In this document: positions 21,831 through 32,989 of the stretch, in pieces | Position numbering within the stretch: position 1 is the first letter of the stretch | Layout: every line of letters starts with the position of its first letter | Source: an uncultured Bacteroidales bacterium | Lineage (GTDB): Bacteria; Bacteroidota; Bacteroidia; Bacteroidales; P3 | Direction of reading: 5' to 3' | DNA length: 32,989 nt | Assembly (NCBI GenBank): GCA_905236645.1 | Contig: CAJOMZ010000024.1 | Location: 1 to 32,989, forward strand | The notes under the pieces: generated by a model | Databases searched by the model: none | What the model was told of the DNA's origin: nothing | Seen by the model: only the letters and a program-made list of their open reading frames with translations | Program-made: the position numbers and the translations under genes

Positions 21831-22019
21831 ATAGCGATTCGTGCTATTCTTGACTACCAAATTTCCACATCGTCCTCGTTAACGAGGCAAACAATGCAAG
21901 AATAGGTCAACGAAGCGTCGTTCATCGGCGTGGAATGACTTAGTTTGCATTGTAGGGCGTGGAAACCCTGGTAGTCAGACAGAGATACGTTCCACGCTAT
22001 TTTTATACACTCCACGCCC
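21831..22019 (+). other. Structured intergenic element ahead of the sigma operon (copy 1 of a repeat)
   Basis: This segment is dense in complementary pieces. ATAGC/GCTAT form a hairpin at 21831-21847, CCTCG-TTAA-CGAGG a second at 21874-21887. GACTACC (21852-21858) pairs with GGTAGTC (21970-21976) and, nested inside, TTTCCAC (21862-21868) pairs with GTGGAAA (21959-21965). ACAATGCAA (21891-21899) pairs with TTGCATTGT (21945-21953). CTATTCTTG (21844-21852) can instead pair with CAAGAATAG (21897-21905). The first 38 bases recur at 28860-28897. Four GGCGTGGA-type boxes, two in each orientation, lie at 21927, 21956, 21990 and 22011. It may be a regulatory leader, a small RNA or an inserted repeat. 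I know no named RNA family that it matches. Confidence 0.6.
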
Positions 22020-25782: not shown

Positions 25783-27030
25783 ATGAGACGATTACTTTGG
25801 ATACTGATACCACTAATGTTCACTTCCTGTATAAAGGATTTGGAACAGGAGGGCATCTACACAGTGGGAACGGTCATTGGACGTGTAGTGGAACGCACCA
25901 CGCAACAACCCGTTGGAAGACTCACCGTGCAGCTTGTCTCGGGTGATGCCACCTTGAGCACCACCACCTCTGCCAACGACGGGACATTCAGCCTCCCCAT
26001 CACCACTGAGCAGCAATCCCATGGCTGCCAGGTCGTGATCAGCGCCGACTCACTCTATATCGGATGCAGCGCCGATGTACCCAGTGGTAGCTTCGGACGG
26101 CAGGAGTACTACCTCGGGGTGTTGTATGTCGATGGGCCGGGACTGCCTGTGGTGCATACCAACACTATTTCTCCCGATGCCGTGAGCGCCACCTCGGTGA
26201 CGCTCACGGGAACTGTAGCCGACGACCTGCGTTCCACTATCATCAGTCGCGGGTTCGCCTATAGCACCTTGCAGTATCCCACGCTTGCCGACGGCAGCGT
26301 GTCGGTGGGTGGCACCTTGGGCGACTTCACCGCCACCGTTACAGGCCTGCAACCGGGCACCATCTACTATGTACGGGCCTACGCCACCAACGGGGTGGGT
26401 ACCGCTTACGGAGAACAGCAGACCTTCACTACTCCCAGCGGTTTGCCTACGGTACAGACGGCCAGTGAGGTCACTTTAACGGGAAGCAGTACGGCTCAGT
26501 GTGGCGGCACCGTTACAGGCGACGGAGGCTTTACGGTCACCGCCCGCGGTGTCTGCTGGAGTGTGTCGCCCGAGCCTACGGTGAGCAACCTGCATAGTAC
26601 CGACGGCAACGGTCTGGGTACCTTCGTCAGCACTCTCACGGGCTTGCAGCCCAGCACCACCTACTATGTGCGGGCCTATGCCACCAATGCCAACGGCACC
26701 GTCTATGGCGAGCAGCGCAGTATCACCACTCCCAGCGGACTGCCGACGGTTACAACGACCACTGCCAGCAGCATCACATCCAATAGTGCAGTCTGTGGTG
26801 GCAATGTCACCTCCGACGGCGGCTATACCGTCATACAGCGCGGCGTCTGCTATAGTACTACACCTAACCCCGCTGTCTCTGGGCCTCATACCACCGACGG
26901 CAGCGGCACCGGCAGCTTCGTCAGCAACCTCACAGGACTCACCGCCAACACCACCTACTATTATAGAGCCTACGCCACCAACGCCACAGGGACGGTGTAT
27001 GGAGTGGAGAGGACATTAACTACTAATTGA
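25783..27030 (+). CDS. Lipoprotein with a carboxypeptidase-regulatory-like domain and three Fn3-type repeats
   Basis: The 415-residue product has a lipoprotein signal (MRRLLWILIPLMFTSC). An N-terminal segment (VGTVIGRVVERTTQQPVGRLTVQLV) resembles the carboxypeptidase D regulatory-like domain. Three beta-sandwich repeats follow, each with TVxGxL/TSDGG, RGVCW/Y and a closing YYxRAYATN. The YY positions are spaced by 99 and 98 residues, so the repeats are regular and similar also at DNA level. Such proteins are surface-exposed and probably adhesive or structural. It is the last gene of the sigma operon, with 3 bases between it and the previous stop, so it is a likely effector whose display the sigma factor controls. 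Confidence 0.75.
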   Translation: MRRLLWILIPLMFTSCIKDLEQEGIYTVGTVIGRVVERTTQQPVGRLTVQLVSGDATLSTTTSANDGTFSLPITTEQQSHGCQVVISADSLYIGCSADVPSGSFGRQEYYLGVLYVDGPGLPVVHTNTISPDAVSATSVTLTGTVADDLRSTIISRGFAYSTLQYPTLADGSVSVGGTLGDFTATVTGLQPGTIYYVRAYATNGVGTAYGEQQTFTTPSGLPTVQTASEVTLTGSSTAQCGGTVTGDGGFTVTARGVCWSVSPEPTVSNLHSTDGNGLGTFVSTLTGLQPSTTYYVRAYATNANGTVYGEQRSITTPSGLPTVTTTTASSITSNSAVCGGNVTSDGGYTVIQRGVCYSTTPNPAVSGPHTTDGSGTGSFVSNLTGLTANTTYYYRAYATNATGTVYGVERTLTTN

Positions 27031-27430: not shown

Positions 27431-28780
27431 ATGAAAAGAAAGATTTACAACAAGTTGCTAAATTGGAAAGAAACACAGCAAGGCCAAACGGCCATTTTGG
27501 TCGATGGCGCACGTCGTGTAGGCAAGAGCTACATTGTGGAAGAATTCGCCAGGAAAGAATACAAATCCTACATCCTGATAGACTTCAGCAATGAGGACAA
27601 ACAGCTGAAGATGCTGTTTGAGGAACATCTCTCCAATCTCGACACATTCTTCCATATGCTCTCCATTTTGAAAGATGTAAAGCTCTATCCGCGCGAGTCA
27701 GTCATTGTGTTCGATGAGGTACAGCAGTACCCTCCTGCCCGCGCCGCCATCAAACACCTTGTAAAAGACGGTCGTTTCGACTATATAGAGACCGGCTCCC
27801 TTGTCAGCATCAACCGCAACGTGAAGAATATCGTCATACCGTCCGAAGAAGAGCGCATTGATATGCACCCTATGGACTTTGAAGAGTTCCTCTGGGCTAT
27901 GGGCAACGACGGGCTGATGGATTATATCAGAGACTGTTTCTCCGCTCACACCCCTATGGGAGAAGCACTGCACCGCAAGGCTATGGAACTTTTCCGACAG
28001 TATATGATTGTGGGAGGTATGCCCCAGGCCGTGGAGATTTATGCCCAAACAAAAGACTTCGACAAGGTTGACCGCATCAAACGTAACATATTGAACATCT
28101 ATCGTGCCGACATCAGCAAATATGCGGCAGGCAATGAACAGAAAGTGACGCGCGTGTTCGACACTATACCGTCTCAGCTGCAACGCCACGAAAAACGGTT
28201 TCGCGTCAGCGACCTTGAGAAAGGCGCACGGACCAGAACCTATGCCAACGCCTTTTTCTGGCTCCAAGAGTCGCGCGTGATCAACACCTGCTTTGCCGCC
28301 ACAGAACCCAACGTCGGGTTGAATCTAAGCCGCGACGACGCCAAGCGGAAAATATATATGGCCGACACCGGCCTGCTCATAGCTATGGCTTTCGACGAGA
28401 AGGACATCCAGCAGGGGCAGCTGTACAAAAAACTGATGTTTGACAAATTGGAAATAAACAGGGGTATGCTGGTAGAAAATATTGTAGCCCAAATGCTGCG
28501 TACAGCAGGCAATCGGCTTTATTTCTACTCCAATGCATCTCATAACAAAGATGACAAAATGGAGATAGACTTCCTTGTCAGGAAACCGTCGGTGACCTCT
28601 CGCCATAATATCTCCCCCATCGAAGTAAAGTCATCGGCACGTTATACGCTTACATCCTTGGACAAATACCGACATAAATATTCCGAATACCTGGCCACAC
28701 CCTACGTAATACATTCCAAGGACTATATCGAAAAGGACGGCATCACCTATATCCCCTTGTATATGACGCCACTGCTGTAA
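27431..28780 (+). CDS. AAA_14 family ATPase with C-terminal DUF4143 domain
   Basis: The 449-residue product has an N-terminal P-loop domain with LVDGARRVGKSYIVEEF (Walker A near residue 30), SVIVFDEVQQYP as Walker B and YIETGSLVS as sensor. The C-terminal DUF4143 region has AYMADTGLL-like MADTGLLIAM, GMLVENIVAQML, EIDFLVRK and PIEVKSS, the last two resembling a PD-(D/E)xK nuclease core. Such proteins are abundant and mobile in gut Bacteroidales and their role is unclear, though toxin-antitoxin or conflict functions have been suggested. I chose the ATG at 27431 because the TTG at 27401 lies inside the promoter box. It stands as a single gene with its own repeat-rich promoter. Confidence 0.85.
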   Translation: MKRKIYNKLLNWKETQQGQTAILVDGARRVGKSYIVEEFARKEYKSYILIDFSNEDKQLKMLFEEHLSNLDTFFHMLSILKDVKLYPRESVIVFDEVQQYPPARAAIKHLVKDGRFDYIETGSLVSINRNVKNIVIPSEEERIDMHPMDFEEFLWAMGNDGLMDYIRDCFSAHTPMGEALHRKAMELFRQYMIVGGMPQAVEIYAQTKDFDKVDRIKRNILNIYRADISKYAAGNEQKVTRVFDTIPSQLQRHEKRFRVSDLEKGARTRTYANAFFWLQESRVINTCFAATEPNVGLNLSRDDAKRKIYMADTGLLIAMAFDEKDIQQGQLYKKLMFDKLEINRGMLVENIVAQMLRTAGNRLYFYSNASHNKDDKMEIDFLVRKPSVTSRHNISPIEVKSSARYTLTSLDKYRHKYSEYLATPYVIHSKDYIEKDGITYIPLYMTPLL

Positions 28781-28859: not shown

Positions 28860-29080
28860 ATAGCGGATCGTGCTATTCTTGGCCACCGAATTTCCACCTT
28901 TGCCCACTTATGCGGGAATGCCACAATCTAGAATCGTCAGGCGCGCACCGTCTGTGTTCTGCCGCATCGCCACACAATTAGAAAAGAAACTATGAAGAAT
29001 GGGGTAAATAGAACAGAAGAATGTGATTATTCCGTCGGGGACCCTTCGGTGGTCCTTCGACGACGGGTCGTCGCTATATA
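28860..29080 (+). other. Structured intergenic element ahead of the protease pair (copy 2 of a repeat)
   Basis: Bases 28860-28897 match 21831-21868 at 33 of 38 positions. The layout is the same: ATAGC-7 nt-GCTAT hairpin, TCTTG, the left strand GGCCACC (28881-28887), TTTCCAC (28891-28897), and a 14-nt hairpin at the same offset (CCCAC-TTAT-GCGGG, 28903-28916, one mismatch). GGTGGTC at 29048-29054 pairs with GGCCACC with one G-U. Further hairpins CGACGA-CGGG-TCGTCG and GGACC/GGTCC lie near 29036-29076. The stretch 28917-29030 between has no other feature that I recognise. The element covers most of the 332-bp gap before the protease gene. Confidence 0.55.
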
Positions 29081-29112
29081 GAAATGTGGAATAACTTATT
29101 AATAATAAATAT

Positions 29113-29748
29113 ATGAAAGAAGATAATATAACTGATGCTATTGTTCCAATATATTGCAATAGTAGATTCAATGGGACTGGCTATATATATAAGTCGTATT
29201 TGATAACTGCAGCACATGTAGTGGAGAATATGGATGACATTGGATATGTATTTCAAGGTAATTACTATAAATTGGATGAGGACAACAGGAAATATATTAA
29301 AAAAAGAGGTAAAGATCGAGATGAATTTGGAAGGATAATATTTAATGCTTTAGCAGAAGATTTAGCGATCTACCGTATTGATACTCATTGTGACATATTT
29401 GAATTATCAAATGAATCAGTTCTGGACGGAACATGCTCCACTTTGTTTGGATATCATTACATCGATGAAGACAATAATCCTTTAAAATATGGAATCGTAA
29501 AGATATACAATAGTTGTAAAATTGAAGGGACTATTCTGTTTCCACAAGATTACTGCATGTACTGTAAAAAGTTGGAGAATTCGTTTAATATTATCAAAGG
29601 ATATAGTGGTGGTCCATTGATTGTTGAGAATACCGTTGTAGGTATGTTAATTGAAAGTATGACGATTGATGGTTATTACCACATAATGAAGTCTAAACGA
29701 ATTTGGGATATGATAAATAATAATGAGCATGATACAGATAGAGCATAA
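29113..29748 (+). CDS. Trypsin-like serine protease, cytoplasmic
   Basis: The 211-residue product has the S1/trypsin-2 order of catalytic residues: AAHVVENM with His35, AEDLAIYRID with Asp83 and GYSGGPLIV with Ser165. TGYIYKSYLITAAHVV and the following VVGMLIES strand also fit this fold. Unlike HtrA it has no PDZ domain, and it has no signal peptide, so it would act inside the cell. The gene is AT-rich (28 percent G+C in 29281-29340), unlike its neighbours, and uses ATA, AGA and TTA codons. It overlaps the next gene, a DUF2971 protein, by 26 bases. Trypsin-like proteases paired with other proteins occur in bacterial conflict systems; here the partner and substrate are unknown. Confidence 0.82.
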   Translation: MKEDNITDAIVPIYCNSRFNGTGYIYKSYLITAAHVVENMDDIGYVFQGNYYKLDEDNRKYIKKRGKDRDEFGRIIFNALAEDLAIYRIDTHCDIFELSNESVLDGTCSTLFGYHYIDEDNNPLKYGIVKIYNSCKIEGTILFPQDYCMYCKKLENSFNIIKGYSGGPLIVENTVVGMLIESMTIDGYYHIMKSKRIWDMINNNEHDTDRA

Positions 29749-30646
29749 CAATAGATTATATAGGGATTATTATGATTATCCTGAGATAACTTATAAAAGT
29801 GGTCGACGTTTTTCACCACCAGATTTTTTATATAAATATTATCCCCTAAACGATAACTCCATTGATGCAATTACTAATCATTATTTATATGCATCCAAAC
29901 CATCTCAACTGAACGATAGGTTTGACTGCTCTAATCAGCTATTACAAAGCCAAAGTTACACCGATGAGATAGAACTACTAAAAATTTGTGGATCAGATCA
30001 AGATCTTTCTCTGGAAGAATACTATCTTTTAAATGATTTTGGACTTTCAACGGATATATATGAAAAAATATTCAGCGAGACAGGGATAATCAGTATGACT
30101 ACAAATCATTCTGATATTCTTATGTGGTCTCATTATGCTAAAAACAATGGGTTTTGTGTTGAGTATAGGATTGATTGTTTTCCATGGGATTGGATAGGCC
30201 CATTCCCAATACAATATTGTAAACGGCGGGAATCAACTCCAGTTGATGCGAGTCAGTTCTCATTAATACCACTCCTCCTCTGTTTTCAGAAAAACTCAAA
30301 ATGGAAATATGAAAAAGAATGGAGGGTGTTGGTTAGTCTTAAGGACAATCCCAATCGGAAATGCGTCTATTCATTAGAGACCATAACAGGGATTTATTTT
30401 GGCGCATCTTTTTTCAATGAAAAAGAGACTCAACTTGACCCTAATGAGGAGTTCCATACGATTGTCAAAATTGACAATCGATTAGACGATTATCGAATAA
30501 AATTGTTGGATTTCATAGTTAATAATAGTATTCCGGCTTATTTTGATTTCACAGCAAATATTGATGAGATAACATTCCTTCGATCATATTGCAAGGGAGG
30601 CAATGGAGAATATGATATATACAACGAAATTGGTGAAATATATTAA
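29723..30646 (+). CDS. DUF2971 domain protein, partner of the trypsin-like protease
   Basis: The 307-residue product matches the DUF2971 pattern: LYKYYPLND, LYASKPSQLNDRFDCSN, ILMWSHYAKNNGFCVEYRID, KWKYEKEWRVLVS and ITGIYFGASF. No reaction is known for the family, but it occurs often in mobile and defence-associated gene sets. No membrane helix or signal peptide is visible. The gene starts inside the protease gene (26-base overlap; ATG at 29723, with a second ATG at 29729), which implies translational coupling and joint function. The codon use is AT-rich like that of the protease. The next gene begins 2 bases after its stop. Confidence 0.8.
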   Translation: MSMIQIEHNNRLYRDYYDYPEITYKSGRRFSPPDFLYKYYPLNDNSIDAITNHYLYASKPSQLNDRFDCSNQLLQSQSYTDEIELLKICGSDQDLSLEEYYLLNDFGLSTDIYEKIFSETGIISMTTNHSDILMWSHYAKNNGFCVEYRIDCFPWDWIGPFPIQYCKRRESTPVDASQFSLIPLLLCFQKNSKWKYEKEWRVLVSLKDNPNRKCVYSLETITGIYFGASFFNEKETQLDPNEEFHTIVKIDNRLDDYRIKLLDFIVNNSIPAYFDFTANIDEITFLRSYCKGGNGEYDIYNEIGEIY

Positions 30647-30648
30647 AT

Positions 30649-32989
30649 ATGAAAAAGATACTTTTTACAATCCTACTGCTGACGGCAGCAATCAATACTT
30701 ACGCCTATGACTTCTCGGCAGTATGTAGTACAGGGCAGACATTGTATTATAACATTACCAGTGATAGTACTGTATGTATAACTTATCCTGGTGATTATTT
30801 GGCTGGAACAAGATGCTATCTATATACAGGAAATTCCTTCGGGCCATATACTATTGGTTCTCCATATAACAAATATGTATTAGATACCCATCTTCCATAT
30901 ACACAAATGAACTATAACGGTTCAATAATAACTGTACCACGATTATACGGAAATGGAAATTATATAAAGCCTTCGGGTAGACTTGTAATACCCCAAAACG
31001 TGACACATAATAATCATGATTATATAGTTAACGAAATAGGAGAACAATGTTTTTATGGATGTAATCTTTCTTCTATACTAATCCCAAATACTATTTTGAA
31101 CATTGGTAACAATGCTTTGTGGGGAAATTCTATAGACACACTTTATTTTAATGCGACAAACTGTTATACATTTGATAGCCGACAGATGGGAAACGCTTTA
31201 ACTATGTGTTCAATAATAATTGGGAACAATGTCAAACGAATACCTGATTATATGCTATACTATACACACAATATCAATCTTTCAGTCATTGATTCATTAC
31301 GATATGTTGGAGCTTTTAGTTTTAATAATAGAAACGACATTAGTGGTCAATTTATGATATCTTCATTTGTTGATAGTATAAGCAATTATGCGTTTGCAAA
31401 TTGTGACAACATCATCTCCATTTATACCAACGCACATTTTATCGGCAGCAACGCTTTCGCCAACTGTGACCGCCTCGTATCTGTAACCTTAGGTGATTCA
31501 ACACAAGCTCTCGGCAGCGGTGCCTTCAGTGGTTGTTTCCGCCTACAGAATATCGACCTTGGTGGAGTAAATTCCATAGGTGACAGCGCTTTTAGCGGCT
31601 GCGTGCGATTGGAAAAACCTGAACTGCCGGCGAACCTCATCACCATCGGCGCACGTGCATTCAACGACTGCAACCTGCTGGAGGGCAAGCTGACATTCCC
31701 GGCTACCATCACCAGCATCGGGGATTACGCATATAGTGGTATTGGCATCATCACGGAGATAGAGATGCAAGGGGTCACCCCACCGACCATCTATGCCCAC
31801 ACCTTCAACTCGGTGGCTGGCAGCACGCCGGTCAGCGTACCGTGCGGGGCTGTTCTCAACTACTACACCACCAACTACTGGGAAAACTTCTCCACCATCG
31901 TGGAGGCACCGCCGTACAAACTTACTGTAGCCACAAACAACGAGGTGATGGGCAGCGCGGCGGTGACGCAGCAGCCCACCTGCGGCAACCACTCGGCCAT
32001 AATACAGGCATCAGCGCTTATAGGCTACCATTTCCTGCAATGGAACGACGGCAACACGGCCAATCCACGTACCATCAATATGACGCAGGACTCGTCGTTT
32101 ACCGCCATATTCGTGGTGAACAACAGCTATATCACCATCCACGCCAACGATTCAACGATGGGATCTGTCACCGGGACAGGTCTCTACAGCTACAACGCCC
32201 CCGTGACAATGACGGCGACGGCCTACAGCGGCTACCACTTCCTGAAATGGAACGACGGCAACACGCAGAACCCGCGCTATATGGCCGCGGTGCGCGACAC
32301 CACCTTTACGGCTATTTTCGTGAGCAACGTCAGCACCATCACCGTCAGCAACGCGAACCCTGATATGGGCAATGTGAGCGGCAGCGGCGTGTACTACTAC
32401 CAGAACCTGGTGAGCATCACCGCCACGCCCGTCTATGGCTACCACTTCACGCAGTGGAACGACGGCAACACGCAGAACCCGCGCACCGTGGTAGTGAACC
32501 AGGACAGCAGCTTCACGGCCTACTTCGCACCCAACATCTACAGCATCGTGGGCAGCAGCAATAGCACCACGATGGGCAGCGTCAGCGGTGGCGGCAATTA
32601 CACCTATCTGCACAATATGAGCCTTACAGCCACACCAGCCTTTGGCTATCACTTCGTGCAGTGGAACGACCAGGTGACGGACAACCCGCGCACCATCACC
32701 GTGACACGCGACTCGGCCTTCACCGCCCAGTTCGCCGCAAACAGCTACGTTATCACCGCCGAGCCCAACGATCCGACGATGGGCAGTGCCTACGGCAGTG
32801 GCACCTATAACTTCAACACCACGGCCACGCTGACGGCAGTGGCGGAATACGGATACCACTTCACGCAGTGGAGCGACGGCATTACGGACAATCCCCGCAC
32901 TGTCACGGTGCAGAACTCCGCCACCTACACGGCACAGTTCGAGATAAACAGCTACATCCTCACCGTGCAGAGCAGCAACCCCACCATAG
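30649..32989 (+). CDS. BspA-type leucine-rich-repeat surface protein (3' end beyond window)
   Basis: An open frame starts at ATG 30649 and runs to the window edge, at least 780 residues without a stop. It begins with a signal peptide (MKKILFTILLLTAAINTYA) and the YDFSAVCSTGQTLYYNI opening typical of Bacteroidales BspA-like proteins. LRR_5 repeats follow at about residues 120-400 (VNEIGEQCFYGCNLSSI, ISNYAFANCDNIISI, IGSNAFANCDRLVSV, IGDSAFSGCVRLEK). From about residue 424 come InlB-B-like repeats of exactly 69 residues. The protein is probably exported by the type IX system and displayed on the surface; a sorting domain would lie downstream. Base composition changes inside the gene: about 35 percent G+C at 31141-31200 against 60 percent at 31621-31680. 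It starts 2 bases after the DUF2971 gene. Confidence 0.85.
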   Translation, partial: MKKILFTILLLTAAINTYAYDFSAVCSTGQTLYYNITSDSTVCITYPGDYLAGTRCYLYTGNSFGPYTIGSPYNKYVLDTHLPYTQMNYNGSIITVPRLYGNGNYIKPSGRLVIPQNVTHNNHDYIVNEIGEQCFYGCNLSSILIPNTILNIGNNALWGNSIDTLYFNATNCYTFDSRQMGNALTMCSIIIGNNVKRIPDYMLYYTHNINLSVIDSLRYVGAFSFNNRNDISGQFMISSFVDSISNYAFANCDNIISIYTNAHFIGSNAFANCDRLVSVTLGDSTQALGSGAFSGCFRLQNIDLGGVNSIGDSAFSGCVRLEKPELPANLITIGARAFNDCNLLEGKLTFPATITSIGDYAYSGIGIITEIEMQGVTPPTIYAHTFNSVAGSTPVSVPCGAVLNYYTTNYWENFSTIVEAPPYKLTVATNNEVMGSAAVTQQPTCGNHSAIIQASALIGYHFLQWNDGNTANPRTINMTQDSSFTAIFVVNNSYITIHANDSTMGSVTGTGLYSYNAPVTMTATAYSGYHFLKWNDGNTQNPRYMAAVRDTTFTAIFVSNVSTITVSNANPDMGNVSGSGVYYYQNLVSITATPVYGYHFTQWNDGNTQNPRTVVVNQDSSFTAYFAPNIYSIVGSSNSTTMGSVSGGGNYTYLHNMSLTATPAFGYHFVQWNDQVTDNPRTITVTRDSAFTAQFAANSYVITAEPNDPTMGSAYGSGTYNFNTTATLTAVAEYGYHFTQWSDGITDNPRTVTVQNSATYTAQFEINSYILTVQSSNPTI
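31918..32989 (+). repeat. Tandem 207-bp repeats (69-residue InlB-B-like units)
   Basis: The motif GYHFxxWxD recurs with the glycine codon at 32023, 32230, 32437, 32644 and 32851, exactly 207 bases each time. Each unit has the order ITVxxN, MGSVxGSGxYxY, TAxPxxGYHFxQWNDGNTxNPRTxTV, DSxFTAxF. The array continues past the window. Confidence 0.85.

Follow-up and report, generated by a model that had tools for sequence, protein, structure and literature searches.

A protease and DUF2971 gene pair is probably one of several alternative, defence-type cargoes of a variable slot upstream of a BspA-type surface protein gene in Bacteroidales

What is the role of a trypsin-like serine protease gene that overlaps a gene of the DUF2971 family in an uncultured Bacteroidales bacterium, and do the two genes act as a unit? 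The window analysed here, 32,989 nucleotides, spans the entire contig C24 of a draft genome (2.38 Mb, 91% complete). A sequence-only reading had proposed that the pair near its right end is a two-gene defence module. We refer to the protease (211 aa) as P0001 and to the DUF2971 protein (307 aa) as P0002. A tRNA-Pro gene (anticodon GGG) was seen near the left window end, at 758-832. The features of the locus, in window coordinates, are as follows.

25783..27030, + strand: fn3-domain gene with a lipoprotein-like start by eye, which anchors the left side of the slot in this genus (Pfam, locus comparison)
27431..28780, + strand: AAA_14/DUF4143 ATPase gene (PADLOC PDC-S01), left flank, outside the insert (Pfam, PADLOC; L313 has an 88% identical copy at this position)
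28860..28934, + strand: repeated intergenic element, left flank (blastn; second copy at 21831-21868)
29061..30645, no strand assigned: cassette without a detected counterpart in the sister species G687 (blastn homology borders)
29113..29748, + strand: trypsin-like serine protease gene, 211 aa, triad H35/D83/S165, without a signal peptide by eye (ORFs, Pfam, homologue alignment)
29723..30646, + strand: gene of the 307-aa DUF2971 protein, with 29729 as a possible start site (ORF, Pfam, PADLOC, family alignment)
30649..32989, + strand: BspA-type LRR / InlB B-repeat surface protein gene, right anchor, running off the contig end (ORF, Pfam, locus comparison)
30800..31370, + strand: second variable block, comprising the N-terminal LRR region of BspA (about aa 50-240), which is divergent and AT-rich (protein and nucleotide comparison)

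The reading frames of the protease and DUF2971 genes overlap by 26 nt by their ORF coordinates, which suggests coupled translation of the two proteins. An alternative DUF2971 start at M3 (29729), the position at which a relative begins in the alignment, would shorten the overlap to 20 nt. This overlap with a protease carrying a complete triad had been described from the letters alone, and was borne out by the ORFs, the Pfam matches and the triad residues. The description of the protease as lacking a signal peptide agrees with our inspection by eye, in which neither P0001 nor P0002 showed one; both proteins are predicted to be cytoplasmic. The GC content is 0.31 in the protease gene and 0.34 in the DUF2971 gene, compared to 0.59 in the upstream fn3 gene and 0.48 in the AAA_14 gene. 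The claim that the pair is AT-richer than its flanks therefore holds on the upstream side but not downstream, where the low GC extends past DUF2971 into the first ~250 codons of the BspA gene (0.30-0.36).

The closest relative of the locus is found in G687 (L313), in which purA is 97%, fn3 89% and AAA_14 88% identical and the stretch from purA to fn3 is 82-97% identical. Between these matching flanks, G687 carries cargo unlike that of the window, namely three small genes with a GC of 0.32-0.36. In blastn comparisons, homology to L313 ended at 29060, and homology to L315, L316, L317 and L319 restarted at 30626-30645; nucleotide homology to G687 itself restarted only at 30742. Since homology ends at 29060 and restarts at the BspA start codon, we delimit the cassette as 29061-30645. 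It contains the protease and DUF2971 genes and no further same-strand gene, and no mobility gene was found in its gene content. The BspA gene begins 2 nt past the DUF2971 stop. The sequence-only reading had placed the pair after a repeated element and a mobile-type ATPase. The repeat does have a second copy in the window (21831-21868, 38 bases, 87% alike), and degenerate copies are present in intergenic places of relatives (L313 3164-3234, L262 4839-4969, L317 1907-1962); taken together, the copies are 67-87% alike. The ATPase, on the other hand, is the AAA_14/DUF4143 protein that stands at the same place in G687 next to other cargo, and so belongs to the flank rather than to the insert. By eye, the left cassette edge shows an imperfect palindrome (29037-29072), 27 bases of which recur in L319 ahead of other cargo (89%, E 0.007).

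Of the 120 genomes of the genus that were searched, 36 carry the fn3 gene, our own among them. We surveyed the slot at 32 loci in 29 genomes, leaving out eight weaker places in the other seven genomes with fn3. In 19 of the 32 loci the slot was empty, with BspA following fn3 within 97 bp, and at eight loci, including the window, cargo reached up to the BspA start. The remaining five end at contig ends: cargo is visible in L262 and L263, L318 retains part of an AAA gene, and L314 and L278 show nothing readable. Over the aligned part, fn3 is 49-100% identical to that of the window at occupied loci and 42-48% at empty loci. G649 and G677 have one occupied and one empty locus each, and G044 has an empty locus and a cargo locus at a contig end. 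The split in fn3 identity, together with these genomes with two loci, indicates that the occupied slots belong to one lineage, or to one of two paralogous loci. In each of the eight occupied slots, the cargo gene nearest to BspA ends no more than 9 nt from the BspA start or overlaps it. Tight junctions of this sort are in part characteristic of the site, so the overlap inside the pair is weak evidence of coupling.

The other occupants of the slot tell what it carries. In G649 (L315, 3844-5397), the same chromosomal slot holds an AbiP2 reverse transcriptase (PADLOC, 608 bits, 3e-183), which like the window pair has a low GC (0.32) and directly precedes BspA. At a contig end, G044 has a reverse transcriptase judged by eye to be nearly identical (L263:1-1401). 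AbiP2 is another protein family, and its presence informs us about the slot and not about what the window pair does. G653 (L317) has an FRG-domain gene (FRG 6.5e-17; PADLOC candidate PDC-S15, 1.3e-46), and G690 (L319) has a DUF2971 gene without a protease (DUF2971 3.3e-5; PDC-S31 2.7e-39). The G690 protein is 24% identical to P0002 over 153 aa, and its gene is preceded by a 107-aa gene without a family match. G016 (L262) has an HNH gene (1.1e-8) at a contig end. The slots of G029 and G677 contain related genes with a hydrophobic N-terminal stretch, and that of G003 contains a gene resembling Fic by eye and another small gene. The alternative occupants therefore include one known antiphage family, AbiP2, and two PADLOC candidate families, FRG/PDC-S15 and DUF2971/PDC-S31. 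In four of the eight occupied slots, the gene adjoining BspA has no match to a curated family (L261:12791-13462, L316:6239-6940, L313:11172-11912 and L269:463-1035; no Pfam match, hydrophobic N-terminus by eye), which leaves AbiP2, FRG and DUF2971 as the basis of the defence label. The three of these genes that were scanned with PADLOC (L261, L316, L313) gave no match there either, and those of L261 and L316 are related to each other (24%, 4e-15). We regard all four as candidate unnamed defence genes. By association of its occupants, the slot supports a predicted role of its cargo in defence.

Collectively, these results suggest, in our judgement with fair probability, that the protease and DUF2971 genes are one alternative, swappable and probably antiphage cassette upstream of the BspA/InlB gene, with DUF2971 as the effector candidate and the protease co-expressed. 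Species of one lineage hold different, mostly AT-rich cargo in the slot, and this cargo would most likely serve phage defence. DUF2971 would be the probable effector and the protease a co-expressed regulator or second effector, probably translated together with it; the protease may control DUF2971. An isolated pair is thereby replaced by a located, comparable slot, in which sister species carry AbiP2, FRG, DUF2971 or small genes without a name. These last, together with the protease, become candidate new defence genes, and the slot offers a direct route to more. Defence-type cargo in a variable chromosomal slot is of a kind already known, and here it adjoins a variable surface-protein domain.

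P0002 matches DUF2971 (PF11185) at 31.2 bits (Pfam cut-off 22) and PADLOC PDC-S31 at 1.7e-36. An alignment was made of P0002 and 59 of 70 non-redundant relatives picked from 160 matches. All 60 members match PDC-S31, and in all 60 the residues N64, D65, Y138, G143, Y165, K190, W194, E197, E199 and R201 are invariant. This largely polar core looks like a predicted enzyme or binding site, which makes DUF2971 the better effector candidate of the two proteins and the probable effector of the cassette. By profile match, P0002 belongs to the phage-defence candidate PDC-S31, in which we take the letter S to stand for single-gene. PDC-S31 is itself a predicted candidate, and the window copy differs from it by the protease gene upstream. 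DUF2971 is commoner than the protease, occurring in at least 19 of 198 genomes of the order and at least eight of 120 of the genus; these counts are lower bounds, as the G690 copy escaped the single-sequence search. Relatives of P0002 were also found in 11 plasmid records and one phage record, and no protease was listed near DUF2971 in the five of the 11 plasmid regions that were opened, for which the gene table was incomplete. No significant relative of DUF2971 was found among solved structures (best E 0.61). A relationship of DUF2971 to FRG was considered and rejected, as profile comparisons showed no relation. We found no published test of DUF2971/PDC-S31 in phage defence in the literature searched, and the titles and abstract openings of work on the slot setting, PADLOC candidates and AbiGi mentioned neither this slot nor DUF2971.

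P0001 passes the Pfam cut-offs for Trypsin (30.6 bits; cut-off 20.6) and Trypsin_2 (28.9; cut-off 27.6). Its catalytic triad is H35, D83 and S165, with the serine in a GYSGGP motif, and all three residues are retained in its single clear homologue, in G047 (32% identical). An alignment of P0001 with this homologue gave no significant match to a solved structure, the best (E 0.28) being to trypsin-fold proteases. Proteases of this type are rare. They were found in two of 99 relatives and in one of 395 genomes of the phylum, the own genome counted in each, and in three of 395 genomes of the class including the own, two of these being weak partial matches. Sequence searches found no relatives in plasmids, phages or viral contigs. 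P0001 matches the PADLOC models RT-Protease_XI, LmuA, HamA1 and PDC-M35A at ~1e-9. A secreted HtrA of a genus-mate scores better on the same models (best 3.5e-26), and the G047 homologue, encoded in the same genome as this HtrA, has no match to any of them at E 0.01; these matches are unspecific, and we rejected them as evidence that P0001 is a defence-associated protease. The HtrA-type secreted proteases of the genus have the trypsin-like domain in common with P0001, but by eye they begin with a signal-peptide-like stretch and, at 489 and 715 aa, contain additional parts, whereas P0001 is a bare single domain of 211 aa without a fusion partner.

To find other instances of the pair, DUF2971 loci were drawn from viral contigs (126 distinct), genome contigs (the best 80 of 147) and whole-genome searches. 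Of the 326 loci, 244 carry a DUF2971 ORF by profile, with repeats included and many having only ~1.5 kb of flank. Trypsin-like neighbours were sought with seven protease seeds and a broad motif. Such a neighbour was detected at two places among the 244 loci: that of the window, fetched five times, and one place in the sister species (G687/RUG13410), fetched twice. At this second place (L163:5953-9554 / L268), two genes come after the closest relative of the window's DUF2971: one of 119 aa, and behind it that of a 715-aa HtrA-type protease, which is on the same strand as DUF2971, 423 bp away, and has a signal-peptide-like start. The proposed search for the pair across genomes thus returned only the window and a place with a secreted protease, and the pair was not recurrent in independent genomes among the 244 loci sampled. 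The sequence-only reading had named as contrary findings that the two families do not occur together elsewhere or that the pair sits only beside surface-protein genes and shows no link to mobile or defence loci; the former is what we observed in these loci, while the other occupants tie the slot to defence genes. Its two-gene defence module is partly supported: the slot elsewhere holds AbiP2, FRG/PDC-S15 and another DUF2971/PDC-S31, and P0002 is itself a PDC-S31 protein, but this supports defence for the slot rather than a recurrent system made of the two genes.

The neighbourhood of DUF2971 at large was compared at 80 loci. Of 122 near neighbours, 11 of at least 900 aa were set aside, leaving 111; the far set comprised the first 111 of 134 proteins, one more having been set aside for length. 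The near set matched 242 PADLOC models and the far set 21; as the models are redundant, do not count proteins and are listed for 25 rows, the comparison is only suggestive and we claim no protein-level enrichment. The near neighbours matched 106 Pfam families, of which the best 25 are listed, a list that by itself leaves room for a trypsin family among the others.

The strongest competing explanation is that the two genes are independent cargo: DUF2971 would be a defence effector that works alone, and the protease a separate gene that landed upstream of it. The two places among 244 loci, allowing for their many repeats and short flanks of ~1.5 kb, are in keeping with this, as are the PADLOC class of DUF2971, PDC-S31, the protease-free DUF2971 of L319 in the same slot, and the protease homologue of G047, among whose listed neighbours there is no DUF2971. 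The frame overlap and the coupled translation that it suggests speak against independence, though weakly, as all eight occupied slots abut or overlap the next gene. We give independent cargo a substantial chance, somewhat short of even.

A more elaborate possibility is that the protease activates DUF2971, so that upon infection it would cut the DUF2971 protein and thereby switch it on. A two-gene logic of this kind is described by Tuck et al. (Science 2025, PMC12799240), in whose nuclease-protease pairs trypsin-like proteases cut and activate a gated nuclease. In those pairs a defence enzyme (HamA, Avs1a or LmuA) carries the trypsin-like protease as a fusion, and a gated MBL nuclease serves as its partner; canu loci are described as well. 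The window pair resembles these pairs and canu loci in that a trypsin-like protease with an intact triad adjoins the gene of a putative effector in defence-type surroundings. The overlapping genes, and the triad retained in the homologue, would also fit such activation. In contrast to the published pairs, the partner here is DUF2971 and not an MBL-fold nuclease, the protease stands alone without a fused sensor or defence enzyme, the segment lengths give no evident sign of a gating insertion, and we found a single instance of the pair. Across eight segments of the 60-row alignment, P0002 is shorter than the family median in three, equal in two and longer in three. The longer segments are the N-terminus, 201-227 and the C-terminal part (81 versus a median of 48), and all eight segments lie within the family range, with no clear insertion by length. 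We consider activation by cleavage unlikely. Given the lack of a fused sensor or MBL nuclease, the lengths within the family range and the unspecific PADLOC matches of the protease, we commit only to the wider statement, that the pair is an alternative and probably antiphage cassette.

Alternatively, the cassette might be co-transcribed with the BspA gene and modify or regulate the surface protein. The BspA start 2 nt after the DUF2971 stop, the junctions of at most 9 nt or overlaps in eight of eight slots, and the variability of the BspA N-terminal LRR region itself would be consistent with such a role. The cargo, however, varies by species and includes AbiP2 and FRG, neither window protein has a signal peptide by eye, and 19 loci have BspA without any cargo. 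We know of no surface role for AbiP2 or FRG, and we regard a function in surface biology as improbable.

The variable N-terminal region of BspA is a second variable block, standing between a better conserved 5' end and the conserved InlB repeats. Around the BspA start and the first ~50 codons (30626-30798), the nucleotide sequence is 68-75% identical to L315, L316, L317 and L319, and partly to L261 and L313. Homology within the gene breaks at ~30798 and restarts at 31018-31441. At the protein level, aa 60-240 are 18-47% identical to six occupied-slot relatives (L313, L315, L316, L317, L319, L261), and from aa 240 on identity is 60-93%; in the same alignment aa 1-60 are 18-73% identical, with low values in G649 and G653. 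In the six relatives, the GC of BspA is 0.32-0.40 at the start and rises above 0.5 after 900 to 2100 nt, while two BspA genes at empty slots have 0.43-0.47 in the first 300 nt and at least 0.5 in later windows. We speculate, giving the idea little chance of being right as a whole, that the locus is a two-block exchange site, in which an intracellular defence cassette and, a few hundred bases further along, the N-terminal LRR ectodomain of BspA would be swapped between conserved flanks, and the window cassette would be a protease-controlled DUF2971 effector. If so, one recombination event would change both the phage- or partner-facing surface and an internal antiphage gene. It is unusual for such a slot to adjoin a variable surface-protein domain, and the arrangement is open to testing.

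The least probable reading is a remote kinship of DUF2971 with AbiGi, under which the pair would work as an AbiG-like abortive infection unit: comparison of 161 DUF2971 with 42 AbiGi (PF10899) sequences in hhalign gave a score of 30.8 (P 0.001), above all controls (FRG 13.0, AAA_14 10.2, reversed AbiGi 13.3; 100 column shuffles with mean 13.0 and maximum 23.2, 0 of 100 reaching 30.8), and by eye four motifs occur in the same order, but the HH-suite probability was only 21.6% with a 7-column core at E-x-EWR, it was 4.8% with seven AbiGi sequences, the global mode scored 2.7, and the partner gene encodes a protease and not AbiGii.

On viral contigs of at least 30 kb, 23 of 40 DUF2971 loci sit no more than 6 kb from a contig end (a hand count that includes several near-duplicates), a position that is common for prophage cargo genes.
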